From Bolinopsis microptera (lineage: Eukaryota; Ctenophora; Tentaculata; Lobata; Bolinopsidae), in the NCBI RefSeq assembly GCF_026151205.1, contig NC_087081.1, positions 17,964,859 through 18,028,858 of the forward strand: a stretch of 64,000 nt of DNA, written 5' to 3'. The notes under the pieces are model-generated. The model had not been told where the DNA came from. It saw only the letters and a program-made list of their open reading frames with translations, and did no database searches. Position numbers and translations under genes: made by a program. Position 1 is the stretch's first letter, and each line of letters opens with the position of its first letter. This document shows positions 5,075 to 63,659 of this stretch, piece after piece.

Positions 5075-5078
5075 TTAA

Positions 5079-5539
5079 GGGGGCAGGGGGGGGGTCTTTA
5101 TGAAATTCCTCTCGAAATTAATTTTATAGTTGTTTCTGATAGAGGGGAGTAATATCTACCAGATGCTTTTGGTCCCATGGACAAATTTTGTTCCTAGCCG
5201 AAATTATTGCCGATCAAAGGTCAGCGCTCATGTGTAATTGTATTGCGCGAGCGATTTTCAATCGCGCGCCCTGAAAATCGAGTCTAAAAATCTATCTTCT
5301 CCTACATTTTTTGAGCAATCACCTTGAAACTTTCAGGATATGTTTTAAGGAACATTTAAAAACTTCTGGTCTATCAGAATTTTAAAATAGGCCTTAGAAA
5401 AGTTTTTATTCGATTTTGAAAATCTTGGACCTCGTTTTTTGACGATTTTTTCAGGTCCAAGATTTTCAAAATCGAATAAAAACTTTTCTCAAAAGACCCC
5501 CCCCCCCCCCCCCCCCCTAAAAAGACCCTCCCTGCCCCC
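5079..5539. mobile_element. TTAA-flanked G/C-tipped element, copy 3
   Basis: Same termini as copies 1 and 2, with TTAA at 5075-5078 and 5540-5543. The C-run at about 5497-5517 is the longest of the three. Confidence 0.75.
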
Positions 5540-5543
5540 TTAA

Positions 5544-5857
5544 TGGCGCCCTTAATGCCGCCCTTAATGGAGCCCTTAATGCCGCCCTTAATACCGCCCT
5601 TAATTCCACCCTTAATGCCGCCCTTAATGCCGCCCTTAATACCGCCCTTAATACCGCCCTTAATGCCGCCCTTAATGCCGCCCTTAATTCCACCCTTAAT
5701 GCCGCCCTTAATATCACCCTTAATATCACCCTTAATGTCGCCCTTAATGCCGCCCTTAATTCCACCCTTAATGCCGCCCTTAATGCCGCCCTTAATATCA
5801 CCCTTAATATCACCCTTAATGTCGCCCTTAATGCCGCCCTTAATGCCGCCCTTACAA
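5544..5857. repeat. 12-bp minisatellite, last array
   Basis: About 26 copies of the CCCTTAAT-based unit with the same terminal ATATCA-variant pair as the array at 2301-2625. Confidence 0.88.
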
Positions 5858-5859
5858 AA

Positions 5860-6375
5860 CCGGAAAAAGTTCAGGAGTTAATTAATAAATAATGATTTGG
5901 TGTATTCGTGTGGTGTTATTGAGTCTCATTCGATAGTTCTTTGATTCAAATTTTTGATTGTTTCTGAATAGACTCAGTGAAGACAGATTCTAATGGAAAT
6001 AAATATCTGAATAACGTAATCGAGGCAATTTGGTAGTCTAGCTCTAGCTATGCACACTTGGGGCACACTTGGGGCACAAAATTGTATTTCCTGGGGCACA
6101 GTTGGGGCATAAAGTGTGCCCCAGGGAAATACAATTTTGTGCCCCAAGTGTGCCCCAAGTGTGCCCCAAGTGTGCCTAGCTAGATTACCAAATTGCCCGT
6201 AATCGACATTTCTACGTCATACTCATAATTGTTATATGTTAACAAATAATTTGAGAAGATGAGTATGACGTAGAAATGTCCATACGTTATTCAGATATTT
6301 ATTTCCATTAGAATCTGTCTTCACTGAGTCTATTCAGAAACAATCATAAATTTGAATCAAAGAAATAATGATTTA
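5860..6375. mobile_element. Fold-back (long inverted repeat) element B
   Basis: The arm starting near 5934 (AGTTCTTTGATTC) is repeated in inverted orientation up to about 6366, over roughly 85 bp with few mismatches. A second inner palindrome of GTGCCCC/GGGGCAC repeats lies at 6050-6178, and a third at about 6203-6280 (GACATTTCTACGTCATACTC and its complement). No ORF or transposase is present. The left arm alone also occurs at 2640-2840. Confidence 0.75.
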
Positions 6376-6671
6376 TTACAATTGCAGGGAAATTTGGCAG
6401 AATAATCAGCACTGTCAGGCCGCTACGTCCTTATTTGTAATAATACGACTTTCCTCTGATTCTGTTCAGTTAACTAATACTGATCCTATCACTTCGCTGT
6501 GGCTGTGCAGTGTTTTCGTCTACTTCCTGAAGAAGGTCAGCAATAGCTGGACATTAATTGTTAATTAATATTAGCAAACTTATCGTCCATTGATATGAAT
6601 TTCTATTCATATTTGAATTGTGAGTACCATACCAGGACAAACTGTTACAATTAAGCATTTTTCTCGGTCGC
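6376..6671. other. No gene seen
   Basis: AT-rich sequence with a short open frame at 6368-6568 that has no recognisable motif. I see nothing supportable. Confidence 0.4.
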
Positions 6672-22300: not shown

Positions 22301-25300
22301 CTTCCTCCTCCCTACTCTCTTCCTTATCCTCCCCCACCTCTTTTATTCTTCCTCCTCCCTACTCTCTTCCTTGTCCTCCACCACCTCTTTTATTCTTCCT
22401 CCTCCCTACTCTCTTCCTTGTCCTCCACCACCTCTTTTATTCTTCCTCCTCCCTACTCTCTTCCTTATCCTCCCCCACCTCTTTTATTCTTCTTCCTCCC
22501 TACTCTCTTCCTTATCGTCCCCCACCTCTTTTATTCTTCCTCCTCCCTACTCTCTTCCTTATCCTCCCCCACCTCTTTTATTCTTCCTCCTCCCTACTCT
22601 CTTCCTTATTCTCCCCCACCTCTTTTATTCTTCCTCCTCCCTACTCTCTTCCTTATCCTCCCCCACTTCTTTTATTCTTCCTCCTCCCTACTCTCTTCCT
22701 TGTCCTCCACCACCTCTTTTATTCTTCCTCCTCCCTACTCTCTTCCTTGTCCTCCACCACCTCTTTTATTCTTCCTCCTCCCTACTCTCTTCCTTATCCT
22801 CCCCCACCTCTTTTATTCTTCTTCCTCCCTACTCTCTTCCTTATCGTCCCCCACCTCTTTTATTCTTCCTCCTCCCTACTCTCTTCCTTATCCTCCCCCA
22901 CCTCTTTTATTCTTCCTCCTCCCTACTCTCTTCCTTATTCTCCCCCACCTCTTTTATTCTTCCTCCTCCCTACTCTCTTCCTTATCCTCCCCCACTTCTT
23001 TTATTCTTCCTCCTCCCTACTCTTTTCCTTATCCTCCCCCACGTCTTTTATTCTTCCTCCTCCCTACTCTCTTCCTTATCCTCCTTCACCTCTTTTATTC
23101 TTCCTCCTCCCTACTCTCTTCCTTATCCTCCCCCACCTGTTTTATTCTTCCTCCTCCCTACTCTCTTCCTTATCCTCCCCCACCTTTTTTATTCTTCCTC
23201 CTCCCTACTCTCTTCCTTGTCCTTTACCACCTCTTTTATTCTTCCTCCTCCCTACTCTCTACCTTGTCCTCCCCCACCTCTTTTATTCTTCCTCCTCCCT
23301 AATCGCTTCCTTATCCTCCCCCACCTCTTTTATTCTTCCTCCTCCCTACTCTCTTCCTTATCCTCCCCCACCTCTTTTATTCTTCCTCCTCCCTACTCTC
23401 TTACTTATCCTCCCCCACCTCTTTTATTCTTCCTCCTCCCTACTTTCTTCCTTATCCTCCCCCACCTCTTTTATTCTTCCTCCTCCCTACTCTCTTCCTT
23501 ATCCTCCCCCACCTCTTTTATTATTCCTCCTCCCTACTCTCTTCCTTATCCTCCCCCACCTCTTTTATTCTTCCTCCTCCCTACTCTCTTCCTTGTCCTC
23601 CCCCACCTCTTTTATTCTTCCTCCTCCCTACTCTCTTCATTATCCTCCCCCACCTCTTTTATTCTTCCTCCTCCCTACTCTCTTCCTTATCCTCCCCCAC
23701 CTCTTTTATTCTTCCTCCTCCCTACTCTCTTCCTTATCCTCCCCCACCTCTTTTATTCTTCCTCCTCCGTACTCTCTTCCTTATTCTCCCCCACCTCTTT
23801 TATTCTTCCTCCTCCCTACTCTCTTCCTTATCCTCCCCCACCTCTTTTATTCTTCCTCCTCCCTACTCTCTTCCTTATCCTCCCCCACCTCTTTTATTCT
23901 TCCTCCTCCCTACTCTCTTCCTTGTCCTCCCCCACCTCTTTTATTCTTCCTCCTCCCTACTCTCTTCCTTATCCTCCCCCACCTTTTTTATTTTTCCTCC
24001 TCCCTACTCTCTTCCTTGTCCTTTACCACCTCTTTTATTCTTCCTCCTCACTACTCTCTTCCTTGTCCTCCCCCACCTCTTTTATTCTTCCTCCTCCCTA
24101 ATCGCTTCCTTATCCTCTCCCACCTCTTTTATTCTTCCTACTCTCTTCCTTATCCTCCCCCACGTCTTTTATTCTTCCTCCTCCCTACTCTCTTACTTAT
24201 CCTCCCCCACCTCTTTTATTCTTCCTCCTCCCTACTCTCTTCCTTATCCTCCCCTACCTCTTTTATTCTTCATCCTCCCTACTCTCTTCCTTATCCTCCC
24301 CCACCTCTTTTATTCTTCATCCTCCCTACTCTCTTCCTTATCCTCCCCCACCTCTTTTATTCTTCCTCCTCCCTACTCTCTTCCTTATCCTCCCCCGCCT
24401 TTTTTATTCTTCCTCCTCCCTACTCTCTTCCTTATCCTCCCCCACCTCTTTTATTCTTCATCCTCACTACTCTCTTCCTTGTCCTCCCCCACCTCTTTTA
24501 TTCTTCCTCCTCCCTAATCGCTTCCTTATCCTCCCCCACCTCTTTTATTCTTCCTACTCTCTTCCTTATCCTCCCCCACCTCTTTTATTCTTCCTCCTCC
24601 CTACTCTCTTACTTATCATCCCCCACCTCTTTTATTCTTCCTCCTCCCTACTCTCTTCCTTATCCTCCCCCACCTCTTTTATTCTTCCTCCTCCCTACTC
24701 GCTTCCTTATCCTCCCCCAGCTCTTTTATTCTTCATCCTCCCTACTCTCTTCCTTATCCTCCCCCAGCTCTTTTATTCTTCCTCCTCCCTACTCTCTTCC
24801 TTGTCCTCCACCACCTCTTTTATTCTTTCTCCTCCCTACTCTATTCCTTATCCTCCCCCACCTCTTTTATTCTTCCTCCTCCCTACTCTCTTCCTTATCC
24901 TCCCCCACCTCTTTTATTCTTCCTCTTACCTACTCTCTTCCTTATCCTCCCCCACCTCTTTTATTCTTCCTCCTCCCTACTCTCTTCCTTATCCTCCCCC
25001 ACCTCTTTTATTCTTCCTCCTCCCTACTCTCTTCCTTGTCCTCCCCCACCTCTTTTATTCTTCCTCCTCCCTACTCTCTTCCTTGTCCTCCACCACCTCT
25101 TTTATTCTTCCTCCTCCCTACTCTCTTCCCTATCCTCCCCCACCTCTTTTATTCTTCCTCCTCCCTACTCTCTTCCTTATCCTCCCCCACCTCTTTTATT
25201 CTTCCTCCTCCCTACTCTCTTCCTTGTCCTCCACCACCTCTTTTATTCTTCCTCCTCACAACCCTCTTCCTTATCCTCCTTCACCTCTTTTATTCTTTGT

Positions 25301-25654
25301 CCTCCCTAACTAAGGCCTAAGTCTCTTAGTCTTAGGCCTTAAGTATTTTCATAGCACTAATATAAAAATTCATTTTGGTTCATGGCTTGAGGTCTTTGTT
25401 CATGGCTGAATCCGAAATAATTTACACTGGGGGTCGCGATATGGGTGTGGTCAAAAAGGGCGTGATTCCGAGAAATTGTGTTACTTAGGACCATATAAGT
25501 CGGATTACATTGAGAAACTTAGCAGACGTCCCAAATCCCAATGTGAGCGGGACTTTTGCCAGGTTCAGGATTACAGCGGTCGCTTAACCCTTATAATTTT
25601 ATTGACGAGGCATCCGCTGAAATTTCCAAAACCGTCCTGACCCCACCTCCCCCC

Positions 25655-34384: not shown

Positions 34385-34574
34385 AGTCAGAACTAAGGTT
34401 TTTTTTTTACAAATGTCTCAGACCCATAGCTAGATCTGTGAATTTTAGGCAGACCCACTCGACAGCGGCCAAATTTTGCGCATTATGAGCCCCAAGCCCG
34501 ATACCCACTTTGCCTCCCAATTATACTATCATCTCGTAACTTCATAATGAAGGTTCCGTTATTCATTTAAAGAT

Positions 34575-35520
34575 TAAGTTTTTTTGATTCTCGGCACGCA
34601 GCCCGACACGACACGTAGCCGGGGCGAAGCTCCTTTGGTTGGCTAGGGAGGGGGGAAGGCGCAGCCCCCCAGAAAATTTTTGAGAAATTATGTGTTTTAG
34701 ACGACATTTGGCATTAAAGAAATTTTTAGGACAGTAATAATCAGACATCACAATAATACAAAGTTGGGGGGCTAGGCTAGGGGGGCGCAGCCCTGGCCTT
34801 CGGAAAATTTTTGAGAAATAGGGTGTTCCAGACGACATTTGTAGGACAGCAATAATCAGACATTACAATAATACAAGGTTGGTGGGCTGGGGGGGGGGCG
34901 CAACCCCCGGAAAATTTTTGAGAAATAGGGTGATTCAGACGACATTAGGCATTAAAGAAATTAGTAGGGCAGTAATAATCCTGACACATCACAATAATAT
35001 AAAGTTGGTTGGCTAGGGAGGGGGGGGCGCAGCCAATCAGAAAATTTTTGAGAAATTATGTGTTTTAGACGACATTTGACATTAAAGAAATTTGTAGGAC
35101 AGTAATTATAATCAGACATCACAATAATACAAAGTTGGAGGGCTAGGCAGGCGCAGCCCTGGCCTTCGGAAACTTTTTGAGAAATAGGGTGTTCCAGACG
35201 ACATTTGTGAGACAGCAATAATCAGACATTACAATAATACAAGATTGGTGGGCTGGGGGGGGGGCGCAGTAATAATCAGACATCACAATAATATAAAGTT
35301 GGGGGACTGGGGGGGGGCGCAGCCCCCAAGAAAATTTTTAGAAATTATTTGTTTTAGACGACATTAGGCATTAAAGAAATTTGTAGGACGGCGATAATAC
35401 AAAGTTGGGGGTGCAGCCCCCGGAAAATTTTTGAGAAATAGGGTGTTTCACTGTTTCAGACGACATTTGGCATTAGAAATTTGTAATTTCAGACATCACA
35501 ATAATACAAAGTTGGGGACT
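34575..35520. repeat. Irregular 110-250 bp repeats with GCGCAGCCCCC
   Basis: Blocks built from CATCACAATAATACAAAGTT, GGGGGGCGCAGCC, GAAAATTTTTGAGAAATAGG and CAGACGACATTTGGCATTA recur about seven times with deletions. No coding sequence. Confidence 0.88.
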
Positions 35521-35749
35521 AGGGGGGAACTCAGTACTTGTCACATTGAATGGAATAAGTACATATTGTATAGTGGGATTTGGGAATAATTTACGAAATG
35601 CTAAAGTCGATTGCCTGTCGTGTCGTTTAATCAAACAGTCATAAACACAGCCCACTTACCAGGCGACCATGGGGACTAGGGGGCTTATTTTTTTTGGGGT
35701 TCAATTTTTTTCCGGGGGTCTTCCCCTTGGCTACGTGTCTGCATTCTAG

Positions 35750-37890
35750 TTGCCAGACCCACTCTATTAGAGTGCAGACTCAACATTTTGGTTGCCAGAC
35801 CCACTATTCTAGAGTCCAGACCCACAATTCTGGTTGTCATATCTCCTATATTCTAGTTCATAGACCCCCAATTCTGGTTGACAGAGTGAAGAATTACCAT
35901 TCTGGTTGCCAGATTCACTCTTCTAGAGAGGAGACCCACTCTTCTAGTAGGTACAGAGTCAAGACCCACTATTCTAAAATGCAGACCCACCATTCTGGTT
36001 GCCAGACCCACTCTTCTAAGGCGAAGACCTACCATTCTGGTTGCCAGCCCCACTCTTCTAGAGTGTAGACGCACCATTCCGACTGCCAGACCCACTATTC
36101 TTGAGTGAACACCCACCTTTCGGGTTGCCGGACCCACTATTCTAGACTCTAGACTCCAGACGCACAATTCTGGTTGCCATATATCCTATATTCTAGTTTA
36201 GACCCCCAATTCTGGTTGACACTTGACAGAGTGTAGACTTACCATTCTGGTTGCCAGACCCACTCTTCTAGAGTGAAGACCCACTATTCTAGAATTCTTA
36301 CCCACCATTCTTGTTGCCAGATCCACTCTTAGCTAGAGTGAAGACCCACTATTCAAGAATTCTGACCCACCATTCTTGTTTCCAGACCCACTACCCTAAG
36401 GTGCAGACCCACCATTCTGATTGCCAGACTCACTCATCTTGATTCCCTTGATTGCAGACCCACTATTCTGGTTGCCAGACCCACTCTTATAGATTGCAGA
36501 CACACCAATCTAGTTGCCGGACCCACTCTTCTAAAGTGTAGACCCACCAGACCTATTATTCTAGAGTGAAGACCCACTACTCTGGTTGTCAGACCCATTC
36601 TTCAAGGGTGTACGTACACCCACCATTCTGGTTGCCAGACCAACTTCTAGATTGCAGACCCAACATTCTAGCTGCCAGACCCACTCTTCTCAAGTGCAGA
36701 CCCACCACTCTGGTTGTCAGACCCACTCTTGATCTTGAAGCCTGAAGGGTGCAGACCCACCATTTTGGTTGCCAGACCAACTTCTAGATTGCAGACCCAC
36801 CATTCCAGCTGCCAGACCCACACTTCTCAAGTGCAGATCTACCACTCTGGTTGTCAGACCCACTCTTTAAGCCTGAAGGGTGCAGACCCACCATTCATGT
36901 TGCCAGACCCACATCTAGATTGCAGACCCACCATTCTAACTGCCAGACCCACTTCTAGATTGCAGACCCAACATTCTAGCTGCCAGACCCACTCTTCTCA
37001 AGTGCAGACCCACCACACTGGTTGTCAGACCCACTCTTCAAGGGTGTACGTACACCCACCATTCTGGTTGCCGGACCCACTTCTAGATTGCAGACCCACC
37101 ATTCCAGCTGCCAGACCCACTCTTCTCAAGTTCAGACCCACCACTCGGGTTGTCAGACCCACTCTTCAAGGGTGTACGTACACCCACCATTCTGGTTGCC
37201 AGACCAACTTATAGATTGCAGACCCACCATTCCAGCTGCCAGACCCACTCTTCTCAAGTCCAGACCCACCATTCTGGTTGTCAGACCCACTCTTAAAGGG
37301 TGCAGACTCACCATTTAGCGGCCAGACCCACGCGTCTCAAGTGCAGACCCACCACTCTGGTTGCCGGACCCACTCTTCTAGAGTGAAGACTCATTATTCT
37401 CGAATGCAGATCCACAATTCTGTTGCTAGACCAACTTCTAGATTGCAGACCCACCATTCCAGCCGCCAGACCCACTCTTCTCAAGTGCAGACCCACCATT
37501 CTGGTTGTCAGACCCACTCTTCTAGAGTGAAGACTCATTATTCTCGAATGCAGATCCACAATTCTGGTTGCTAGACCAACTTCTAGATTGCAGACCCACC
37601 ATTCCAGCCGCAAGAACCACTCTTCTCAAGTGCAGACCCACCATTCTGGTTGTCAGACCCACTCTTCAAGGGTGTAGACCCACAATTCTGGTTAACAGAC
37701 CCACTTCTAGATTGCATACCCACCATTCTAGCTGCCAGACCCACTATTCTCAAGTGCACACCCACCACTCTGGTTGTCAGACCACTCTTTAAGGGTACAG
37801 ACCCATCATTCTGGTTGCCAGACCCACTTCTAGATTGCAGACTCACCATTCTAGCGGCCAGACCCACTCTTCTCAAGTGCAGACCCACCA
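35750..37890. repeat. Degenerate ~38-bp minisatellite (CAGACCCACCATTCTGGTTGC)
   Basis: Roughly 55 diverged copies based on TGCAGACCCACCATTCTGG and TTGCCAGACCCACTCTTCTA. Higher-order copies with GTGTACGTACACCCACC occur at about 36607, 37043 and 37172. Open frames on both strands are by-products of the repeat. Confidence 0.9.
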
Positions 37891-38119
37891 CTCTAGGCAA
37901 CAGGGGTGAATAATATCAACAAATAAATATTGTTTAATTTTTGCAAAAAATTTCTCGTCATGTGACAACCCTTCCCAACCCCCCTCAACCCCCTACCCCT
38001 CCCCCCTAAAAAACTCATCGGATTTTTGCTTCCCGCGAACATGATTTTCTCTGAAAATTTTTGTCAAGCCAGATCTGTAAATCTATCAAATATGTAAAAA
38101 AAAAACCTTAGTCAGAACT

Positions 38120-42639: not shown

Positions 42640-44286
42640 ATAGACCCTGAAATGACTCGTCCAGATCCAGTCATATCCTTAAATTTGAAATAACTCAATA
42701 GCTGAAATTTACTGATGACACTTTGTATAGTCTCCTCATTTCAGACTAGTGGTTAAAATGACTCGTCCAGATCCAGTTAAATCCTTAAATTTGAAATAAC
42801 TCAATAGCTGAAATTTATGATGATACTTTGTATGCTTGACCTCCAGTCCGCCAATTTTGAGATTCATAAAAATCGATTATGTTCAAAAGGTGTAGAATTA
42901 GATGGCGGTCAACATGGTGGTAACGATTTTTTGATAGACCTTAAAATGACTCGTCCAGATCCAGTCATATCCTTAAATTTGAAATAACTCAATAGCTGAA
43001 ATTTACTGATGACACTTTGTATGCTTGACCCCTAGTTCGGTATTTTTGAGACTCATAAAAATCGAGCATGTTTAAAAGGTGCAGAATTAAATGGCGGTCC
43101 AAACGGTCGTAACGATTTTTTGATAGACCCTAAAATGATTCGTCCAGATCCAGTCATATCCTTAAATTTGAAATAACTCAATAGCTGAAATTTACTGATG
43201 ACACTTTGTATGCTTGACCTCCAGAGTCCAGTCCGCCAATTTTGAGATTCATAAAAATCGATTATGTTCAAAAGGTGTAGAATTAAATGGCGGTCAACAT
43301 GGTGGTAACGATTTTTTGATAGACCTTAAAATGACTCGTCCAGATCCAGTTAAATCCTTAAATTTGAAATAACTCAATAGCTGAAATTTATGATGATACT
43401 TTGTATGCTTGACCTCCAGTCCGCCAATTTTGAGATTCATAAAAATCGATTATTTTCAAAAGGTGTAGAATTAGATGGCGGTCAACATGGTGGTAACGAT
43501 TTTTTGATAGACCTTAAAATGACTCGTCCAGATCCAGTCATATCCTTAAATTTGAAATAACTCAATAGCTGAAATTTACTGATGACACTTTGTATGCTTG
43601 ACCCACAGTCCGCCAATTTTGAGATTCATAAAAATCGATTATGTTCAAAAGGTGTAAAATTAAATGGCGGTCAACATGGTGGTATCGATTTTTTGATAGA
43701 TCTTAAAATGACTCGTCCAGATCCAGTTAAATCCTTAAATTTGAAATAACTCAATAGCTGAAATTTATGATGATACTTTGTATGCTTGACCTCCAGTCCG
43801 CCAATTTTGAGATTCATAAAAATCGATTATTTTCAAAAGGTGTAGAATTAGATGGCGGTCAACATGGTGGTAACGATTTTTTGATAGACCTTAAAATGAC
43901 TCGTCCAGATCCAGTCATATCCTTAAATTTGAAATAACTCAATAGCTGAAATTTACTGATGACACTTTGTATGCTTGACCCACAGTCCGCCAATTTTGAG
44001 ATTCATAAAAATCGATTATGTTCAAAAGGTGTAAAATTAAATGGCGGTCAACATGGTGGTATCGATTTTTTGATAGATCTTAAAATGACTCGTCCAGATC
44101 CAGTTAAATCCTTAAATTTCAAATAACTCAATAGCTGAAATTTATGATGACACTTTGTATGCTTGCCCTCCAGTCCGCCAATTTTGAGATTCATAAAAAT
44201 CGATTATGTTCAAAAGGTGTAGAATTAAATGGCGGTCAACATGGTGGTAACGATTTTTTGATAGACCTTAAAATGACTCGTCCAGA
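42640..44286. repeat. ~190-bp satellite with dimeric higher-order structure
   Basis: About nine units containing AAAATGACTCGTCCAGATCC, TTAAATTTGAAATAACTC, GAGATTCATAAAAATCGATT and AATGGCGGTCAACATGGTGG. Two unit types alternate over most of the array: one has CAGTCATATCC with ACTGATGACAC, the other CAGTTAAATCC with ATGATGATAC. The effective period is about 377 bp. Two more units lie at 53277-53637. Confidence 0.93.
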
Positions 44287-46648
44287 TCCTGCTGAATAGA
44301 GGCGCCACTTAAAACGTAAACAAATGTGTTTCACCTCTTTAACCTGCTGAATAGAGGCGCCACTTAAAACGTAAACAAATGTGTTTCACCTCTTTAACCT
44401 GCTGAATAGAGGCGCCACTTAAAACGTAAACAAATGTGTTTCACCTCTTTAACCTGCTGAATAGAGGTGCCACTTAAAACGTAAACAAATGTGTTTCACC
44501 ACTTTAACCTGCTGAATAGAGGCGCCACTTAAAACGTAAACAAATGTGTATCACCTCTTTAACCTGCTGAATAGAGGCGCCACTTAAAACGTAAACAAAT
44601 GTGTATCACCTCTTTAACCTGCTGAATAGAGGCGCCACTTAAAACGTAAACAAATGTGTTTCACCTCTTTAACCTGCTGAATAGAGGCGCCACTTAAAAC
44701 GTAAACAAATGTGTTTCACCTCTTTAACCTGCTGAATAGAGGTGCCACTTAAAACGTAAACAAATGTGTTTCACCACTTTAACCTGCTGAATAGAGGCGC
44801 CACTTAAAACGTAAACAAATGTGTTTCACCACTTTAACCTGCTGAATAGAGGCGCCACTTTAAACGTAAACAAATGTGTATCACCTCTTTAACCTGCTGA
44901 AAAGAGGCGCCACTTAAAACGTAAACAAATGTGTATCACCTCTTTAACCTGCTGAATAGAGGCGCCACTTAAAACGTAAACAAATGTGTATCACCTCTTT
45001 AACCTGCCGAATAGAGGCGCCACTTAAAACGTAAACAAATGTGCTTCACCTCTTTAACCTGCTGAATAGAGGCGCCACTTAAAACGTAAACAAATGTGTA
45101 TCACCTCTTTAACCTGCTGAATAGAGGCGCCACTTAAAACGTAAACAAATGTGTTTCACCTCTTTAACATGCTGAATAGAGGCGCCACTTAAAACGTAAA
45201 CAAATGTGTTTCACCTCTTTAACCTGCTGAATAGAGGTGCCACTTAAAACGTAAACAAATGTGTTTCACCACTTTAACCTGCTGAATAGAGGCGCCACTT
45301 AAAACGTAAACAAATGTGTATCACCTCTTTAACCTGCTGAATAGAGGCGCCACTTAAAACGTAAACAAATGTGTATCACCTCTTTAACCTGCTGAATAGA
45401 GGCGCCACTTAAAACGTAAACAAATGTGTATCACCTCTTTAACCTGCCGAATAGAGGCGCCACTTAAAACGTAAACAAATGTGTTTCACCTCTTTAACCT
45501 GCTGAATAGAGGCGCCACTTAAAACGTAAACAAATGTGTTTCACCTCTTTAACCTGCTGAATAGAGGTGCCACTTAAAACGTAAACAAATGTGTTTCACC
45601 ACTTTAACCTGCTGAATAGAGGCGCCACTTAAAACGTAAACAAATGTGTTTCACCACTTTAACCTGCTGAATAGAGGCGCCACTTTAAACGTAAACAAAT
45701 GTGTATCACCTCTTTAACCTGCTGAAAAGAGGCGCCACTTAAAACGTAAACAAATGTGTATCACCTCTTTAACCTGCTGAATAGAGGCGCCACTTAAAAC
45801 GTAAACAAATGTGTATCACCTCTTTAACCTGCCGAATAGAGGCGCCACTTAAAACGTAAACAAATGTGCTTCACCTCTTTAACCTGCTGAATAGAGGCGC
45901 CACTTAAAACGTAAACAAATGTGTATCACCTCTTTAACCTGCTGAATAGAGGCGCCACTTAAAACGTAAACAAATGTGTTTCACCTCTTTAACATGCTGA
46001 ATAGAGGCGCCACTTAAAACGTAAACAAATGTGTTTCACCTCTTTAACCTGCTGAATAGAGGTGCCACTTAAAACGTAAACAAATGTGTTTCACCACTTT
46101 AACCTGCTGAATAGAGGCGCCACTTAAAACGTAAACAAATGTGTATCACCTCTTTAACCTGCTGAATAGAGGCGCCACTTAAAACGTAAACAAATGTGTA
46201 TCACCTCTTTAACCTGCTGAATAGAGGCGCCACTTAAAACGTAAACAAATGTGTATCACCTCTTTAACCTGCCGAATAGAGGCGCCACTTAAAACGTAAA
46301 CAAATGTGCTTCACCTCTTTAACCTGCTGAATAGAGGCGCCACTTAAAACGTAAACAAATGTGTATCACCTCTTTAACCTGCTGAATAGAGGCGCCACTT
46401 AAAACGTAAACAAATGTGTTTCACCTCTTTAACCTGCCGAATAGAGGCGCCACTTAAAACGTAAACAAATGTGTATCACCTCTTTAACCTGCCGAATAGA
46501 GGCGCCACTTAAAACGTAAACAAATGTGCTTCACCTCTTTAACCTGCTGAATAGAGGCGCCACTTAAAACGTAAACAAATGTGTATCACCTCTTTAACCT
46601 GCTGAATAGAGGCGCCACTTAAAACGTAAACAAATGTGTTTCACCTCC
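44287..46648. repeat. 55-bp satellite, about 43 copies
   Basis: Unit: CCTGCTGAATAGAGGCGCC, ACTTAAAACGTAAACAAATG, TGTTTCACCTCTTTAA. Variants (GTGCC, CCGAAT, TATCACC, CACCACT, GCTTCACC, CTTTAAACGT) are not random: a 15-unit block of about 825 bp is repeated, with AAAGAGG at about 44899 and 45724. The array ends in TCACCTCCCCGCCAGTATCC and ACATCTAT, the terminus of the inverted-repeat element at 62760-63659. Confidence 0.95.
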
Positions 46649-46668
46649 CCGCCAGTATCCACATCTAT
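46649..46668. mobile_element. Transposon terminus at the end of the 55-bp satellite
   Basis: CCCGCCAGTATCCACATCTA at the right edge of the array is identical to the right end of the element at 62760-63659 (about 63639-63658). Confidence 0.85.
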
Positions 46669-47703: not shown

Positions 47704-48038
47704 ATTTGACCAAAACCCATAATCATGGGTAGAGTGTACCGCTGCCAGTGTCTCTCTTTTCCAAACAAAAGGAAATGATATTAATTTGAATAACCGTCCG
47801 CAAATGCAAATTGATACCGAGAATGAAATCGGTCGCTCGCTTTTTCTAATCAATAAGCTTTATTACCAATTACAATTCGTAAGCCGTGATCGAATGGAAA
47901 AAGCGAGCGACCGATTTCATTCTCGGTATCAATTTGCATTTGCGGACGGTTATTCAAATTAATATCATTTCCTTTTGTTTGGAAAAGAGAGACACTGGCA
48001 GCGGTACACTCTACCCATGATTATGGGTTTTGGTCAAA
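47704..48038. mobile_element. MITE C, copy 1 (palindromic)
   Basis: Inverted arms of about 145 bp (TTGACCAAAACCCATAATC ... GATTATGGGTTTTGGTCAA) around a 40-bp loop containing ACAATTCGTAAGCCG. No ORF. Arms are nearly perfect complements, including GGTCGCTCGC/GCGAGCGACC. Confidence 0.88.
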
Positions 48039-50430
48039 TATCATCTCTTTTTGATTATAATGTCAGGATAATTTACAAAGCCGAAATGTAAACTCATAAC
48101 TTCATTAATATTTATATCAATAATTAGGAGGTAATTTCATCGATTTCGAAATTTTACCTGACTGAATATGGCACTTTTTACTCATTCAAGTTGGCATTAA
48201 ATTCATATATAATTCCATTTAAATATCGCGGGAAAGCAGAATTTATTCGAAATCACGAATGAGCAAAATTCTCACCTTTCGCACGTGCAAACTTTGAGCG
48301 GACGTTGCGTGCGCATACAATATTGAATCACCGTAAATCTTTGCATAGCAGTATTTTATATATAATTTAATAAGCATGCAAAGTTTCAGAAGATTTCATA
48401 TAGAACTTGGATCACAACGGGACTCCAAAGTTGATAAAAATGGTAAAAACAGCAATTTTCAGTAATTTTAGCAATTTTCTATCAATTTGGGCGTGTCCCC
48501 ACGTGTGCAACTTTTCGATTTTCAACTTTAAAACTAGCCTATAACACAATTTAGACCTTTAGGAAGCACAATCGAGCTCCACAACCCAAGGGATGGCCCA
48601 ACACCAGAGAATACTAATTCACAACTTTTGTATTTTTATAAAATTATTCTTCAAAAAAGCACTAACTTCAATAGCGAATATCTTTATGAAGGAGCAAGGT
48701 AGGAAAATTTTCCGGTAGATTTTCAGAATGCTTGAACAATTATCTAAGGTGAAAATATCCTCAGATTTTGAATAAAATTACTCCTTGATGGTTTAAAATC
48801 GATTTGAAAAGTTGTTATTTTGTTAAAAACCAAGTTTTAAAAACACTTAACTTGATGACGTCATCAAGTGATGATGATGACGTTAAATTACTTTTTAATA
48901 TAATGTAAACTGGAGTGTAAACGATTATCTTCAAGACCTGTGGTTCGAAATGGTTGTATCTTTTATACTTTTGAATCTACGGACACTTAAATGTAGGCTA
49001 TAATTGACTGCAAAAGCGTCTATATATATATATATATATAGTATATATATATTTTACCAAAACCCATAATCATGGGTAGAGTGGAGCGCTGCCAGTGTCT
49101 CTCTTTCCCAAACAAAAGGCAATGATATCAATTTGAATGACCGTTATCAAATGCAAAATGATACCGAGAATGAAATCGGTCGCTCGCTTTTCCCACTCAT
49201 TCATGGCTTACGAATTGTAATAAGTTTCGATTTATAACATGTAATCTATTTCAATTGTAAATGAATGGGAAAAGCGAGCGACCGATTTCATTCTCGGTAT
49301 CATTTTGCATTTGATAACGGTCATTCAAATTGATATCATTGCCTTTTGTTTGGGAAAGAGAGACACTGGCAGCGCTCCACTCTACCCATGATTATGGGTT
49401 TTGGTAAAATATCATCTCTTTTTTATTATAATGTCAGGGTACTTTACAAAGCCGAAATGTAAACTCATAACTTCATTAATATTAATAAGGAGGTTATTTC
49501 AACGATTTCGAAATTTTTCCTTTGAAAACATTTTCTTGTGTTTAGATAAGCATATCGGTCGATCACTGACTGAATATGCCACTTTATACTCATTGAAGTT
49601 GGCATTAAATTCATATATAATGACATTGAACTGTCGTGGCAAAGCAGAATTTGTTCAAAATCACGAATGAGCAAAATTTTAACCTTTCGCACGTGCAAAC
49701 CTTGAGCGGACGTTGCGTGCGCATCCAATATTGAATCACCGTAAATTTTTGCATGATGGTGTTTTATATATAGTTTGATAAGCATGCAAAGTTTCAAAGT
49801 ATTTTAAGAAGAACTGTAATCACAACGGCACTCCAAAGTTGACGGAAATTGGTGAAAACAGCAATTTTCAGTGATTTTAGCAATTTTCTATCAATTTGGG
49901 CGTGTCCCCACGTGTGCAACTTTTCGATTTTCAACTTTAAAACTAGCCTATGACACAATTTAGAGCTTTAGGAAGCAAAATTGAGCTCCACAACCCAAGG
50001 GATGGTGCAACACCAGAGAATACTAGAACGTAAAATTAGCGTTTTTATAAAATTATTCTTTAAAAAAGCACTAACTTCAATAGCGAATATCTTTATAAAG
50101 GAGCAAGCTAGAAAAACTTTCCGGTAGATTTTCAGAATGCTTAAACAATTATCTAACTTCAATACCCCCTCAAATTTTGAATAAAATTACTCCTTAATGG
50201 CGTAAAATCGATTTGAAAAATGATTACTTTGTGAAAAATCAAGTTTTAAAAATGGTTAACTTGATGACGTCATCAAGTGGTGATGATGACGTTGAATTAC
50301 TTTTTAACATAATGTAAACTAAAGTCTAAACAATTATCTTCAAGACCTGTGGTCCGAAATGGCTGTATCTTTTATACTTTAGAATCTACGGACACTTAAA
50401 TACAGGCTATAATTCACTGGCAAAGCGTCT
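48039..50430. repeat. Two ~1-kb tandem copies downstream of each MITE C copy
   Basis: 48039-49030 and 49411-50430 are clearly homologous (both start AATATCATCTCTTTTT, then TTTACAAAGCCGAAATGTAA; both contain GCGGACGTTGCGTGCGCAT and GATGACGTCATCAAG). Together with their MITE C copies they form a tandem duplication of about 1.36 kb. No gene is evident in either copy. Confidence 0.88.
49051..49410. mobile_element. MITE C, copy 2 (palindromic)
   Basis: Same family as 47704-48038, with ends TTTTACCAAAACCC and GGGTTTTGGTAAAA and inverted arms of about 150 bp. A TA microsatellite adjoins its left end (49020-49050). Confidence 0.88.
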
Positions 50431-50439
50431 ATCCCTGAA

Positions 50440-51690
50440 TATAAACGGATTTTAAACGGATTAAACATGAAATTACCAGAGAGAACACTAACGGACTCGT
50501 CTTGGCTATACAAGAATGAATAAATGAAAAAATGAATAAATAAAATTATCAAAACTGAATCATTTAAAAATAGTAAAATTTAACCGTTTACAATTTCACG
50601 AAAATAAAAGAAGATCGTCTATAATAATTTAAGGTAATCCAGTAAATAAAGTTCGAGTACTACATCTGTTTGCGAGGGTTAAGGGACGTTTTAGGAGGAT
50701 TACGTAGATTTGAGGAGTCTGTAAGGTACTTCCCGAACTCTTTTATATGGAGTGAGTTCATTATTGCTCCATATTCTTTTAGCATCAACAGGCTTTTGAG
50801 GTTGTCAGAGAGGTTGGACCTGAGTTGATGGTAGTAGGGGCACTCAGTTAGGACGTGGTCTTCGGTTTCTAGAATAGGAGTTTCAAAGAAGGGGAGCTCC
50901 TCTAAAAAACGTATGACATCCGTTTCTGAGGAGCAGCAGAAGCGACACGTTTTAAGAGCTGTGTTGAGTTGATCTTTGGTGTAGCGACCTTTTTCTATCC
51001 TAAGATCGTGACTGCTAGATCGGAGTTTAGCAATATTGACCCTTTTAAGCCGGCAGGGGAGCTTTAAATAGGGTTCTTCGCCAAACTCGAATTTAACCGC
51101 TGCGTAGAAAGACATTTTGGGCTGGTTGAGGAGATCTCTCTTCCAATGGTCAACAAATGTCTCATGTATGTACTCACAAGCGTCTAGGGTGGGTGATAAC
51201 TGCGGCTTGGAGACTGTACTCATCTTGGCAATAGTTGACCACGCATCATACCAGGTTAGATTCAGTAGCTTTTGCTCTTGAAAGGTGTGGTGCAAAAGAG
51301 TGTTCACGTTACCTTCTACCGCCAGGGATGCCCGATGGAAGTAAGCTAAACATTGGGGAATGACGGTAACTGTCCAGGGGGTTCTACCAGTGTCACCATA
51401 GCAGAAGTTGTTATTAGCTTTCTTGTGAACGCCTAGTATCCATTTGAGAATCTTCAGATGAGTTGTTTCGAGCGGATCTTTAGCTGCAGATTTAGGCAGG
51501 CTCACTTCTTCTTTTTTCGACAGGATAGCCTTTACGATGTTTGTTGATGAGAGCCAGACGGGACATGCATAGGTCGCTACAGGCTTTACTAGACTATCGA
51601 TGAGTTTAAGCATCGTGCTGGTAGTGAGCGCTTTCGTGTTGATAATTCGCCTCATTGAGAAGAATGAGCGTAGAGCTTTCTTCCTAAGTT
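50440..51690 (-). mobile_element. 5'-truncated non-LTR retrotransposon
   Basis: 3' fragment on the - strand containing the C-terminal part of an RT ORF and a 3' UTR reaching AATAAATGAAAAAATGAATA-type sequence near 50515-50545. The 5' break lies at a TATATG microsatellite (51695-51725). Confidence 0.75.
50660..51655 (-). pseudogene. C-terminal part of a non-LTR retrotransposon ORF2
   Basis: 331 residues open without a stop. Landmarks are MLKLIDSLVKPVATYACPVW (post-RT conserved region) and a C-terminal zinc-binding-like cluster, CRFCCSSETD and DHVLTECPYYHQLR. RT catalytic blocks are absent by truncation. The clade differs from the other elements in the window. The long intact frame suggests a young insertion. 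Confidence 0.82.
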
Positions 51691-51726
51691 CCTGAATATA
51701 TATATGTATATATATATGTATGTATA

Positions 51727-52690
51727 TATCACGACAATCTGTCGTAAAACAGGGGTTCTAGAAAACCAATTTCCCGATGCTCCTGAAACTTGAAACTTTT
51801 TTTACAGTCGATTAGGTCAACGTCTAGACGCCCTGCAAAGTTTCAGATCTCTAACTCAATTTTAACATGGTTTTTAAGGCACCTGAATATGGCGATTTCG
51901 GGTTTTTTACCGAATTTCGTATAACAGTGCTGGCGAGTATTTTATGCAAATTTTTTAAAAATCTCAACATAACTATTTCTTATTTCTGACATCTTTGACA
52001 TCAAATTAGAATATTTTGAACTAAAAATAAATCTGCTGAACGACTTCCGATGAGTCTTAATGCCTGAAAAACTCCTGCCGGAGGCGTCGGCCTTCGGCCG
52101 CCGCCTCCGGCCGGAGTGCACGCTTCGCGTGCACGAAAGAGGCTTCCGACGTGTACCAAAGGGGGTGTAAAGGGGGTATAATAGTAAAGGGGATAGAATA
52201 GTAAAGGGGGTACATAGTATACCCCCAATAAAGACACCGCTCGTGCTTGCCAGCACTGTGATACTTCACGACAATCTGTTGTAAAACAGGGGTTCCAGAA
52301 AACCCACTTCCCGATACTCCTGAAACATGAAATTTTTTTTACAGTCGATTTGGACAAGGTCTAGACGCCCTGCAAAGTTTCATATCTCTAACTCAATTTT
52401 AACATGGTTTTTAAGGCACCTGAATATGGCGATTTTGGGTTTTTTACCTAATTTCGTATAACATGCTGGCGCGTATTTTGCGCAAATTTCTTAAAAACCT
52501 CCACATAACTATTTCTTATTCCTGTCATCTTTAACATTGAATTAGAATGTTTTGAACTTAAAAATGCCTGCTGAACTACTTTCGATGAGTCTTAATGCCT
52601 GGAAAACAATTTAGGGGATATACTAGTATAGGGGGTAAATAGTATTGTGAATATAAGGGCGACGGTAATGCTTGCCAGCATTGTGATAAT
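51727..52690. repeat. Tandem duplication of a ~500-bp unit with GC-rich hairpins
   Basis: ATCACGACAATCTGTCGTAAAACAGG at 51727 recurs at about 52266 (CACGACAATCTGTTG), and both copies end near GCTTGCCAGCA[C/T]TGTGATA. The first copy additionally contains a compact GC-rich hairpin block at 52074-52140. Confidence 0.85.
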
Positions 52691-53276
52691 AACACATATG
52701 ACATTCAAGTGCATTTTTAAGCAATTTGCCCTGAAGTATGATAATTATAACCAGTTTTATCGTGTTCGCCGTCCTCGAAAACATAGGGTTACATGATTTT
52801 CACTTCGATTTTCATCAACAAATTATAATCCTTATATTTTCAAATCTCTGCTCTGGCCCAGCTCCATGCTGGGTTTCAGAAGGTGATATCATGCTGCGAT
52901 AATTGCGCAGCCCCTCTAATTGGATCCAATTACACTCAATACACTATATTATTCCATATAAGGCCTGATCAAGTAGCTTGAGCTCGGAGAACAAGCTCTG
53001 GTGACTTCATAGTCACGTGACCTCAGGCTCATAATCGGGTAAACCTCAGACCTAATCAATTGGGTTCTGGCCTGGTCAGCCCCGTGTCACCCGATCTTGA
53101 GGTGACGAACGACACCTCGTTGACCCAATCAATGTCTGGAAGGCTGCAAATTTTCACATGCCAAATCCCTAAGATTCATAAAGGGTTGTACGAGATGACG
53201 ATCCATAGAGGCCGCAGAATTATGAGGACTTCCAGATCCTGGTGGAACCTAAGCGATCCATGATATCACGACAGGC
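52691..53276. other. Unclassified repeat-like sequence
   Basis: An open frame at 53060-53263 ends in HRGRRIMRTSRSWWNLSDP, but no family is recognised. Possibly the 3' part of a transposable element. Confidence 0.35.
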
Positions 53277-53637
53277 CCTACCAAATCCAGTTAAATCCTT
53301 AAATTTGAAATAACTCAATAGCTGAAATTTATGATGACACTTTTTATGCTTGACCCCCAGACCGCCATTTTTGAGATTCATAAAAATCAATTGTTTCCAA
53401 AAGGTGTAGAATTAAATGGCGGTCAACATGGTGGTAACGATTTTTTAATAGACCTTAAAATGACTCGTCCAGATCCAGTTAAATCCTTAAATTTGAAATA
53501 ACTCAATAGCTGAAATTTATGATGACACTTTGTATGCTTGACCCCCAGACCGCCAATTTTGAGATTCATAAAAATCAATTGTTTCCAAAAGGTGTAGAAT
53601 TAAATGGCGGTCAACATGGTGGTAACGATTTTTTGAT
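53277..53637. repeat. Two dispersed units of the ~190-bp satellite
   Basis: Both units are of the CAGTTAAATCC type found at 42640-44286, with some private changes (AATCAATTGTTTCC). Confidence 0.9.
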
Positions 53638-56600
53638 AGTAAAACAAAGTATTTTTTTAGTTGATTGATTGATTGAGGAGCACTACCCGAAGGCATTACT
53701 CGGCACTAACGCCTTAAAATCTTTAATTACAATCAAATATAAATATATGCACACAATGTATAAAATATTAATAATGTATAAAATATGATTATGCTATTAG
53801 CAAATTTAAATAGTACTATTAAGAATTTTAAATAACTCTCTTGACATAAATTTAGAACAGCGACACAGGGTCTGAAGAATGCGCGGTGATATTTTTGTCT
53901 TTTAAAAGTTGTAAATGACAGTGAAATTGCGCGGTATCGATAGCATTGTAAAAAATGCTCGAAGATAGTCATATTTCGTTATGAGGTTAAAGTTTTGTTG
54001 CTCGTTATTATGATCAACGTATGTTGTACCAAATTATTTATCCTGCTTCATGTTGCTATTTTAATATATCCACATTCAATGTGGTTTTTCGGATATCTAC
54101 TTTCTTTGTGTCAGGAGAAAATGAGCAGGAGTTAGAGAACCATGTGTATTCACCTAGTTTTTTATATTCTTAAAGGGTTTGTTTTATATTAGGAGCTCAT
54201 TGCTATATTATGTGTTTATTTTTTCGAAATAATTTTATATTCTAGCTATTCTCCTAGTTTTCATAGCTTTTGAAAGAAGCTCGATTAACAAATTCTTATT
54301 TTCCCCAATGTTGTTAATAATAACAAATATAATTTCATACAGTTACATAATTGAAAACATTTATGCACCTTTTTGTGTTGGGAAGGATTTGGTCTTTGTT
54401 GAAGTGTTCATGGTATTTATAAATTATCTGAGTGACTACATCAATAATTATTTAATGAGAGTTTCTTAAAAATTTAAGAACTTAGGGATAATACTAGGAA
54501 CCTAATAAAAATCAAAACAACATGCAGGGCAATCCGATGTTGATTACATTTGATATGTTTACAGGCTAATTGTCTTATTTTAGTAAACTTATTTATGGGG
54601 AAGAACTAAACGGATTGTTAGACGTGAAATACCCACATCCAGGAAAGTTACATTATATTTCCTCGCAGATACAATTTTCTGTTTCTGTGGTTCGCTCGCG
54701 GAAATTTTCCAACTTGCGCAAATGTCAGGGCGAGTAGTGAAGCAGGACAGTTCTCTAAGCTATTTGGGAGCTATGGCCCATCAGAAAATTTTTTTGTTTT
54801 TTGCTCGGCCACATTAAAATCTACATTAACATATATCTGAAGCACTTAAAAAAAGTGGTGTTACAAAATGGCTTTCTCTACAACCAACAGTAAGGACATG
54901 GCTCCAGCTTGCCACCGTCTGTAGTAGTTCTCACAATTTATTATTTGTGCCTTGAAGAGTAGAGGCAACCTATCCTGAAAAATGTAGAGTGCATACAAAA
55001 TAAATTACACACTAGACAGGTATTGAATGATATGGTTTGCCGGCAGGCAAATAATTCCTAAACGGAAGGGCCTAGAAGCAATTCGGCAATTTAGTGATAT
55101 TTACAAACACAGAACTTCAAATATGATCCAAAAGAACTGTTAGTTTTTTCCTCCTTTCATTGTCAACAATTTTAAATTATTTATAGAAAAATTTCCTCTT
55201 CAACGAAAAAAAAACTTCGTATAAAAATTTTTCAAATTGAGATCGTTTAAACTTTTAAAATTTCCTTTGGGCAAGACCAATAAATTCCCTCCGAAATCGA
55301 AAATTTCCTTGCAGATTATCTGCCTATCTGCCAATGGTTTCTGGGAATATGGCGGTGCAGAGTAAGTGACCCATAAGCAGAATAACATAGGCTTTCCTAA
55401 CTTTCATTTTACGAGTGTAAAGTGTATGCACAGGCTTAAGTCTTAGTTAATTCTGAGTAAGCTACTTTTTTGTAAGACTCATTAAGGACAATTTACCTTT
55501 GACAGTGTCACCTTAGAATATAGATATTTTACGACTACAAAACTAACGGTTGTTGTACAATTTAAAATTCACGAGGCGTAAATCACAATTATAAAGTCAG
55601 CTGCCAGATGGTCAGATCATTAGTGAATTTTTGTCAATATTTTGCTACATTTTTCAATAAAATTTGTTCATTCTAACTCCATGTTTATCAGATGAAGCCT
55701 CCAGATTGCCATCAATGGGATGGGGTGAATGAGGACAGTCTATATTTCTTTATAAAATGATGGTTGTTGCTGTGTGGCAGACTTGATAACCATTCCCCCC
55801 TGAATTTTGACTCAGCAGATTCAGCATCTAACATAACTTGGGATGTTGAGACATCGATTGAGCTGTCTTCCATCATCTTGACATAAGCAAATAGAAAAAA
55901 TGTTATTGCTTTAAATCGACTTCATATAAAGATTTCAAAGACTTACAGACTCTGTGCGCTTTAAAGGATTTTTGGGAATATTTAAAATCCGAGCAAGAAA
56001 AGAAATGGAACAACTGTTTTTCTTACTTCAATAGCACTGAAAGGATCAAAAATACTTCTCCCCTACCTGTTTTACAATCAAGAGTGTCATTACTTTGGAT
56101 TTTCCATTACTTGAGGTTCAGAGTGAAACCAATCATTGAGTTATGTAATCAACATCCAAACTTATTGATTGATTGTCTGAAAGATGGTAAGCCACTCTCA
56201 TTGGCTAATGAACCACAATGATTCGCCTTGATGGCTTAGAAAAATTTGCTCTGCAAAGGCATTAATGACAGGAAAATTGTTTGTAAGAGAAGACCGAGGA
56301 GAAGGCCTGCTTAGCATCAACATTAGTCTGTTTTATAGCATGTGCAAGGTAATTATGTGTTTAAACTTGAAATTATAATTATATACAAATGTGAAAATTA
56401 TTTTACTTTCTTATTGAACTAATATTTTATATTAAATCCTTATATCATCATGGATTCTCATTTCAACACTTTTTTTCAGGGGTTCGATAAGGAATGTTGC
56501 TATATACACTTGCATAATAGTCAGAAATTAAACTGTCCAGATCTTGTTGTTTCAGCAGAATGTTTCTTTAAGAGAGCTTTTAGAGACGTGTGGTGGGCCG

Positions 56601-61472: not shown

Positions 61473-62475
61473 CTATGTCACACCAGTCTGGTCCAGCTCC
61501 TCTGGCACCACTAAGCGTTTAGTGTGGTTTGTAAAGTTGACAATAGTGGAGATGTGTTGGTTGTCGAATATGTCATTGACAGAGAGGTAATAGTCCTGGA
61601 AATATTGACCTCTTATTTGGGCAATAGCCGGACACTGTCCTAGAAAGTGTGAGACAGTTTCCTCTCCGTCGCCGCACATAATACAAGCACTGGTGCTTTG
61701 CGAATGGTGTGAAGGTGTTTGTTGAGGCCACAATGTCCCGTGATGAGGTGCACTGCAGTTCTGTAATTTTGTCTGTTGTTGCTGAGTGTAGAGTTAAGAT
61801 TCTTGACGATGTTGATGTGTTTGTGACCGAGTGTCAGTTTGGTGTGTCTGGGTCCATCAGTTAACCAGGTTTCCTGATTTAGTCTGGTGACTTTGTCGTC
61901 GATCAGGCGTTTGATGTAAGATTGTGGAATTGGGCACTTCAAAGTGGATTCACTGGTTGTGCCAATCTTGGCCAGCTCATCTGCTTTTTCGTTCCCCCCA
62001 CAATCCGATCTGTGCAGCGGATCTCTAGAGTGTTGGTGGATCCGAGTGCATTGAGGGTGTCTTAACAGTCTCTAGTAGTTATACTCTTCGTTGAGAGCGA
62101 GGATATAGCTTGTATAGAGGAGAGACTGTCAGACCATATGATGATGTGTGTGTGTGTGTTGGTATAAGTTGAGAGATATTTGAAAGCTTCGATGAGGGTT
62201 AGGGTTAGGGTTAGGGTTAGGGTTAGGGTTAGGGTTAGGGTTTGATAAACAGTGCAATAATCAGGAAGCTTGTATGATCTTTCCTCTAGGGTAGTGTTGT
62301 TATTGTAAGTGGTGATGATATAGCCAGCCCCGTTACCTGAGTCTGTGCGTGACCCGTCTGTGTAGCAGGTGATGGTTTCACTGGAGATGTTGTCGATGGT
62401 GTTTTGAAGTGAATCTCTATATTCAATGTTGTCAGCTCCAGGAGTGGTGACTGTGAATTGTGAAATGCTGTCCAA
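61473..62475 (-). pseudogene. RNase H and C-terminus of I-like ORF2
   Basis: Same motif order as the copy at 2930-3876: CYTDGSRTDSGNGAGY, IIIWSDSLSSIQAI and, at the end, CGDGEETVSHFLGQCPAIAQ. The Glu motif (TELTAIIEA in the other copy) is replaced by telomere-derived residues, LTLTLT..., before IEAFKYL. Several frameshifts. Confidence 0.85.
62197..62241 (+). repeat. Interstitial telomeric repeat (TTAGGG)n
   Basis: About seven perfect TTAGGG units lying exactly within the RNase H region of the I-like fragment, where the sister copy has unrelated sequence (AGAACTCACTGCAATC region at 3137-3152). Confidence 0.95.
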
Positions 62476-62759: not shown

Positions 62760-63659
62760 AATAGATGTGGATACTGGCGGGGAGGTGATAATTGTTTGTT
62801 TACATTTTAGGGCGAGTACATGTTCAGGAGGCTGAGGAGGTGATAATTGCTTGGTTACATTTAAGGGCGAGCACATGTTCAGGAGGCCGAAGAGACGCAT
62901 GTAACGCCTTCTTGTTAGCCCCCTTTGAGGGCCCCGAATTATTTTCTGAACGAAAGCTCAAAAATAACCGAGAAATCGACCTTCTTATTACCTTAGGGCC
63001 AATAAATTTGGTTCACAATAAATTTGAGAACTTTTCGAGACCATTTTCCATTCCATACGACGTAGTTTATGTCGATATGATCCTTCAGCCGTTTCAACAG
63101 ACCATGCATAATGGGCCGATGGATCGATTAAAAATGTAATGTCCAAGAGGAGCTCTATCACTTTAAGTGCAATAGGACTTTGGTACGGTTTTGTGCAGTA
63201 GGAACGGTGATGTCATTATATTAATTATAAAGCCCTATAAACAATGTAAGCTTAATAATATTTAATATTCATGTCATATAAATGCTCTACTGAAATTTTG
63301 GTATCCTTTAAAATTAGTCGCCGAAAAATTTAGTCTCACTAAATTTGGTTTACAACAATTTTAGTCAAAAGTTTGACTAAATTTATGGTTGACTAAAGTT
63401 GTCGTTCTTAAGGTAACTCATTTTGATGACCGTTTCTAACCAAAAATGGCACGAAAAATCGATTTAGCTACGTTTCAGAACCTATAAACACTTCAAAGGG
63501 GGTAACAAGAAGGCGTTACAAGCATCTCTTCAGCCTCCTGAACATGTACTCGCCCTAAAATGTAAACAAACAATTATCACCTCCTCAGCCTCCTGAACAT
63601 GTACTCGATATTAATGTAAACAAACAATTATCACCTCCCCGCCAGTATCCACATCTATT
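62760..63659. mobile_element. 900-bp inverted-repeat element D with 55-bp subterminal repeats
   Basis: Terminal inverted repeat of at least 150 bp: ATAGATGTGGATACTGGCGG at the left, CCGCCAGTATCCACATCTAT at the right. Each arm contains two tandem copies of a 55-bp unit (CCTCCTGAACATGTACTCGC, CCTAAAATGTAAACAAACAA, TTATCACCTCCTCAG on the right arm). The interior has no transposase; a frame at 62792-63139 is not convincing. Non-autonomous DNA transposon. Confidence 0.88.

Follow-up and report, generated by a model that had tools for sequence, protein, structure and literature searches.

A 55-bp tandem array near a contig end of Bolinopsis microptera as the probable expanded arm of an ISL2EU-type DNA transposon

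How did a 55-bp tandem array arise close to one end of C10, a contig of chromosome size in the assembly of the ctenophore Bolinopsis microptera? The stretch analyzed here, termed the window, comprises 64,000 nucleotides (C10:17964859-18028858) and was set against a searched genome of 264.65 Mb in 232 contigs. Among its glutamate receptors, one has its best matches in the ML032222a structures, from the ctenophore Mnemiopsis, and another in kainate receptors. TRF places the array on the forward strand at window positions 44288-46647 (period 55, 42.9 copies, 96% matches), corresponding to 43 units in the unit strings, with array copy numbers given throughout as assembled. A sequence-only reading had described an array of about 43 copies that runs into the exact terminus of a short transposon in the same window, element D, and this description holds at the right edge: the 28 bp TCACCTCCCCGCCAGTATCCACATCTAT (46641-46668, forward strand) directly continue the array and match each end of element D exactly, comprising its outer end and the flanking TAT. 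The last array unit, of type K, continues seamlessly into the terminus CACCTCCCCGCCAGTATCCACATC, with TATA next. The 22-bp core of this terminus has 209 exact genome copies (105 forward and 104 reverse), compared to 0 for the reversed control. The absence of a left terminus, also noted earlier, was confirmed, as no terminus besides the two of element D was found in the window with up to three mismatches allowed (chance expectation 0), indicating that the element carrying the array lacks its left end.

The explanation favored here, with a probability of roughly 0.8, is that the array represents the expanded right arm of a nonautonomous ISL2EU-type DNA transposon. The earlier proposal, in which a DNA transposon's subterminal repeat gave rise to the array and one arm was lost, is supported by a genuine family terminus, by membership of the array in one transposon subfamily, and by the existence of an intact element with two units per arm.

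A second array of 30 units, with the same terminus and the same right flank, is located 180 kb away on the same contig (C10:18189707-18191357). In a comparison covering 25.3 kb, window positions 33563-53661 correspond to C10:18182700-18193296 with 95.5-99.8% identity by block: the right flanks show 7 differences in 798 positions and 8 gap columns, the far left flanks 2 differences in 366, the leftward blocks 97.9%, 99.45%, and 99.76% identity, and the last right block (52686-53661) 95.5% identity. Right of position 53661, no homology of at least 250 bp was detected except for a 189-bp repeat. The other copy lacks two blocks of the window, 34395-38109 (which contains a 21/42-bp array) and 47706-52685 (about 5 kb). 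Between the 43- and 30-unit arrays, unit order and number have diverged much further than the flanking sequence, indicating that array turnover is fast. An error of assembly, for example a haplotype left unmerged within the same contig, might account for the second array or for the difference in copy number, given that the 99.5-99.8% identity of the leftmost blocks could be allelic and that no TTAGGG telomere run was present at any of the seven contig ends read, which are therefore unfinished. Such an artefact is nevertheless unlikely, since the homology decays to 95.5% and then stops, the two missing blocks are unlike a plain haplotig, and unit order differs throughout the arrays. The second array is thus assigned to a segmental duplicate, with an unmerged haplotype the less likely reading.

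These two arrays hold most close copies of the unit: in the full list of 79 genome matches to the array's own unit at one mismatch or fewer, 70 lie inside them, and the remaining 9 are single or double, with no run longer than two. Together the arrays span about 4 kb on one contig, and the locus therefore differs from a classical satellite, which forms long, abundant arrays in many places.

A short member of the family, element D (62760-63659), shows the structural plan. It has TIRs, and each of its arms bears two subterminal units, at 62781-62890 on the reverse strand (left arm) and 63523-63638 on the forward strand (right arm). Its inverted ends are 47 bp long and perfect (62760-62806/63613-63659), and its units are spaced by 55 and 54 bp. 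The D unit is 70% identical to the array unit over 55 bp, a score reached by 0 of 20,000 shuffles, and the array stretch with its terminus aligns to element D at E = 1.9e-13; the relatedness of the units claimed in the sequence-only reading is therefore beyond chance. Insertion of an element beside an unrelated satellite at a later time, which the same reading had named as fatal to its model, would be in keeping with the TAT flank at the array's right edge, as this flank is that of a normal insertion. This scenario is scarcely credible, because the last two array units are 93-96% identical to, and in phase with, the subterminal units of other elements bearing the same terminus, and because the final unit enters the terminus uninterrupted; homology and phase together exclude a coincidental junction.

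The idea that element D was the source of the array did not survive comparison with other elements: over 140 bp, the arms of D show 71.7% and 71.6% identity to the array end, as opposed to 93-96% for a sister subfamily, and D is placed elsewhere in the arm trees, apart from the arrays. Judged by its sequence, element D is a cousin of the array's element, showing its plan and not its source. It could not serve as an empty-site test in the paralogue, where homology ends at window position 53661, before D. An interstitial telomere-like run of eight AGGGTT repeats is located 0.5 kb to its left (62195-62242).

Among the best 40 of 343 candidates, the array end is 97-98% identical to other arms over 131 bp (C2:18426125, C2:23011751, C6:8526285, C1:10924317, and C1:7252155/7253081). 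Over 140 bp, identity is 96.4% for locus L024, 95.7% for L026 and L027, 95.0% for both arms of L023 and for L025, 94.3% for L028, and 92.9% for L029. Trees of the arms, in line with the check that had been recommended, joined the array to one subfamily, with D falling outside it. When 47 of 70 arms were chosen by a mechanical two-unit rule, the arrays fell in an 11-row set with all 8 subfamily arms (support 99/97); with 59 of the 70 arms, from which 11 were omitted by hand (including the two-unit L018) and in which several one-unit arms were kept, both arrays fell in a 21-row set with all eight subfamily arms (support 97/92). In the tree of all 70 arms, no small, firmly supported set holds the arrays, which counts against the favored explanation, and a fork uniting the arrays with L024 alone is firm in no tree. 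The array unit is thus homologous to a repeat inside element ends, and one member of the subfamily, L023, is an intact element of 921 bp with two units in each arm. On the strength of these alignments, L023-like elements are taken to be the parent subfamily of the array and a sister to that of D. Array units carry TTTAACC and most parent arms TTCAACC; the T is also found in L024 and L025, in one unit each.

Many of the listed terminus places form facing pairs approximately 0.17 to 15 kb apart. The first 20 listed termini, all on C1 and unselected, include 1 with no unit, 4 with one, 14 with two, and 1 with three. Among 57 terminus rows, 55 carry 0-4 units and the other two are the 30- and 43-unit arrays; this count requires one spelling of the terminus, so that variant-end arms (e.g., L023, L026, and L027) are left out, and it contains the duplicate rows L019/L020 and later loci mostly chosen for array likeness or length. 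The two-unit junction GTAAACAA-N7-TCACCTCYTYRRCC, a pattern that skips units in which CACATC occurs (L010, with its three units, gives one match), has 329 genome matches and none in the control. The 100 junctions listed (C1 to C5:5.61 Mb) include one run of three junctions, equivalent to four units, as the longest (C2:16637470-16637606), two arms with two junctions each, and 93 solitary places. Arrays of 5-29 units were found neither in the 57 terminus rows, nor in the 100 of 329 junctions listed, nor in the array-unit matches. The graded series of intermediates up to 50 copies anticipated by the sequence-only reading is consequently represented at its low end only; growth resembles a jump rather than a series, and this too counts against the favored explanation. 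The 551 bp read at locus L050 contain four near-identical units before giving way to other DNA, and the exact termini listed include no second one closer than 1.7 Mb (exact spelling only); it is apparently a one-armed four-unit copy of another subfamily, to judge from its sequence.

Across 59 distinct element units, the best conserved columns include all of GTAAACAA, which is exact in 52 of the 59, and parts of CACCTC. Such conservation fits protein-binding sites, most simply those of the transposase, and, by analogy with Galileo and Tetris (PMC4079207), transposase binding is the probable role of the subterminal units. This putative role would account for the retention of several copies in each arm and, hence, for the family's tendency toward such growth.

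The distribution of units also bears on the direction of descent. The unit alone would link array and elements either way, and a satellite that arose first could have supplied units to elements that captured them, as one review reports for miDNA4 in Xenopus (PMC12628747). Here, that order of events is very unlikely: arrays of the unit exist at only two places on one contig, divergent element subfamilies throughout the genome carry two-unit arms, and the array arms group with a single subfamily in the two-unit-rule tree. In addition, eight related two-unit arms share a difference between inner and terminal units that a homogeneous array would not have supplied.

The derivation of the array from a transposon arm raises the question of transposon class. 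An exon in L044 and L047 matches DDE_Tnp_4 (PF13359) at 7.1e-12, and PF13359 matches, compared by coordinate, are enclosed by 13 pairs of family ends. Seven are exact-terminus pairs (C1:8.30-8.32, C1:20.77, C2:14.52, C3:10.49, C4:0.74, C4:16.18, and C5:5.34 Mb), and six are unit-junction pairs (C2:20.67, C3:4.41, C3:14.01, C4:10.00, C4:14.23, and C5:3.55 Mb) that are absent from the exact termini listed and belong to a related subfamily. YqaJ (PF09588) has five matches: one at C1:8311267 within a terminus pair, one at C4:14234242 within a unit-junction pair, two on the same strand as, and 5.0-5.2 kb from, DDE_Tnp_4 pairs but outside the listed range, and a fifth, at C3:4458211, in no listed pair. 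The pairs at C1:8303707-8318992 and C4:14226702-14241235 enclose YqaJ approximately 5.2 kb from the transposase exon, and from their coordinates each such pair, including the 15-kb one, is inferred to be one element and not two neighbors. Elements are preceded by ATA and followed by TAT in 24 of 28 flank rows (L019 and L020 being one element and L025 supplying two rows), which fits an AT or TA duplication; no usable empty site for other elements was present within the fetched loci.

In PMC4482050, most autonomous ISL2EU elements, from the PHIS superfamily, are described as having a DDE transposase and YqaJ, with an AT target duplication in an A-AT-T-like site, and their TIRs as 6-259 bp long and usually, though not necessarily, beginning with GG. 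The family described here resembles that group in having a DDE_Tnp_4-type transposase and YqaJ between its termini, and its AT-rich target is compatible with, though no proof of, AT duplication. It differs in its longer inverted repeat (the arms of L044 form an 852-bp inverted repeat, 100% complementary), in ends that start with GATGTGG, AGATG, or TAGATG, depending on how the duplication is read, and not with GG, and in carrying subterminal repeats of 55 bp; neither "subterminal" nor "tandem" appears in the text of that source. The family is filed as ISL2EU-type on these sequence features, with a reservation because its TIR length and first bases fall outside the description in PMC4482050. Several family termini enclose other sequences. 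Within L044, a different element (3106-6619) is nested in the family member with 100% identical arms; its inverted ends, 347 bp long (94%), flank frames of 251, 343, 161, and 88 codons, none matching a Pfam family above cut-off. Family termini also enclose a LINE-like reverse transcriptase in L043 and a 218-aa C2H2 zinc-finger frame in L046.

The internal structure of the arrays suggests how growth could have begun. In 8 of 8 two-unit arms listed from the parent subfamily, the inner unit ends in TAT and the terminal unit in TTT; the three other arms listed have one unit each, and in other subfamilies the two units usually end alike. Nine consecutive units of the 30-unit array alternate at the TAT/TTT base, and, since the base that separates inner from terminal units alternates in part of this array, the arm from which growth began probably contained two units. 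In the 30-unit array, units an even number of steps apart are more alike than those an odd number apart, a difference equalled in 2 of 4000 shuffles, by a test devised after the alternation was noticed; at lag 2 alone, P is 0.064, and the 43-unit array has no overall dimer periodicity (P 0.37). The post hoc test and these two P values count against the favored explanation. In the 43-unit array, a 15-unit block is present twice, with 14 of 15 unit types alike, and no shuffle of 4000 reached the observed similarity at lag 15.

According to the favored explanation, an element with a two-unit arm would have inserted near the end of this chromosome, and its 110-bp arm would have been duplicated as a block, then enlarged by unequal exchange or slippage, and later scrambled by unequal exchange. 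Loss of the interior and left arm would have left the array against a 189-bp contig-end satellite; subsequently, the segment would have been duplicated, with each array continuing to turn over and the window array doubling a 15-unit block. The array itself would most likely be a passive by-product without function. No empty site for the array was found among the 43 matches shown (best 40 of 607 candidates), of which those besides the paralogue start at least about 130 bp from the insertion point, with one short match about 43 bp away, and the failure to find one counts against this explanation.

The 189-bp tandem array (42753-44289, forward strand; TRF and genome search) is the immediate left neighbor of the 55-bp array and was absent from the sequence-only reading. 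The same satellite recurs at window positions 53281-53639 and, among the matches listed (best 40 of 93), near the ends of C3, C5, C6, C9, C10, and C11, keeping one orientation toward the contig end, with the exception of a copy on C8 located 1.3 Mb from an end. As the seven contig ends read have no telomere run, "subtelomeric" is applicable to this repeat by inference. Both 55-bp arrays adjoin a 189-bp tandem array and lack the remainder of their element; however, the paralogue junction falls at a different point of the 189-bp unit, whereas its position in the 55-bp unit is almost unchanged. This combination is not accounted for by simple descent and counts against the favored explanation. The possibility that the two satellites moved as a joined composite was ruled out, as the junction in the window (44286-44290, forward strand) has one genome match at two or fewer mismatches and the paralogue join differs. 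Elsewhere in the window are a 47-bp strand-asymmetric polypyrimidine array of about 129 copies (19240-25308), within which GC skew reaches -0.967 at 22001-24000, and arrays of the 12-mer TGCCGCCCTTAA in several, seemingly duplicated, blocks (811-5854).

Other tandem growth occurs at the ends of this family. In L007, 12.3 copies of a 119-bp repeat run off the locus (array 1-1469) and precede a terminus, ending about half a subterminal unit before it; just to the left, L049 contains the repeat in both orientations (1-1404 and 3384-4101), so that L007 and L049 seem, from sequence, to belong to a single element whose two arms both contain arrays. The 119-bp repeat was considered as a piece of the family arms and rejected, having no match in other fetched loci. 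In L048 (1460-1579), 3.4 copies of a 35-bp unit consist of terminus plus flank. The apparent single element with oppositely oriented 119-bp arrays on both sides, along with the long near-identical inverted arms of some elements such as L044, could mean that the 55-bp array expanded while still part of a mobile element of foldback-like form, each arm of which bore a long array, and that the left arm was lost only afterwards. This is rather improbable, because no symmetrical 55-bp array was found and both large arrays point the same way with one terminus each. A broader idea is that ISL2EU-type family ends seed tandem arrays repeatedly, with aberrant transposition or repair at transposase-cut ends acting as a general satellite engine in this genome and the large array serving as a sink of putative transposase-binding sites. 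The arrays in L050, L048, and L007/L049 make recurrent growth at family ends a reasonable hypothesis, not a result, and the broader idea as a whole is held with little confidence.

Satellite birth from repeats in transposon ends is already known, and the present locus is a new case that adds an ISL2EU-type source. In PMC4079207, Tetris of Drosophila virilis is reported to have repeats inside its TIRs that change in copy number by unequal exchange, with arrays of up to 66 copies. The likeness to Tetris/TIR-220 extends to tandem repeats of variable copy number in transposon ends, to longer satellite-like arrays derived from them, and to two near-identical copies that differ in unit number, which in Tetris are alleles. 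The Tetris/TIR-220 unit is 220 bp long, in a foldback element of fly heterochromatin, whereas here the unit is 55 bp, the family is of ISL2EU type, and the element terminus is still present at the array's end. MITE-derived satellites are catalogued in two reviews (PMC12628747 and PMC9659126), the latter of which names terminal repeats as a common source. As described there, miDNA4 of Xenopus tropicalis is likewise a MITE with a tandem unit in one or many copies, yet it is a Tc1/mariner MITE whose internal repeat is thought to have been captured earlier; here, the unit is subterminal and present in the arms of several sampled subfamilies. The Xstir repeat of Xenopus MITEs also combines a MITE, a tandem array, and mixed structures in one genome; its source is given as internal MITE sequence by one review and as the TIR by the other, and, in contrast to the growth envisaged here, the mechanism proposed in those texts uses stem-loops of neighboring elements. 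No satellite arrays derived from ISL2EU, or in a ctenophore, were found in the open literature searched by title and abstract.

For most satellites, the traces of origin have been lost. In this case, a single assembly holds the likely starting form (two units in intact elements), a copy with four units and apparently one arm, and a pair of sister arrays that differ in length, which together make the first steps of satellite birth readable and testable, and the locus points to chromosome-end regions as a place for such growth.
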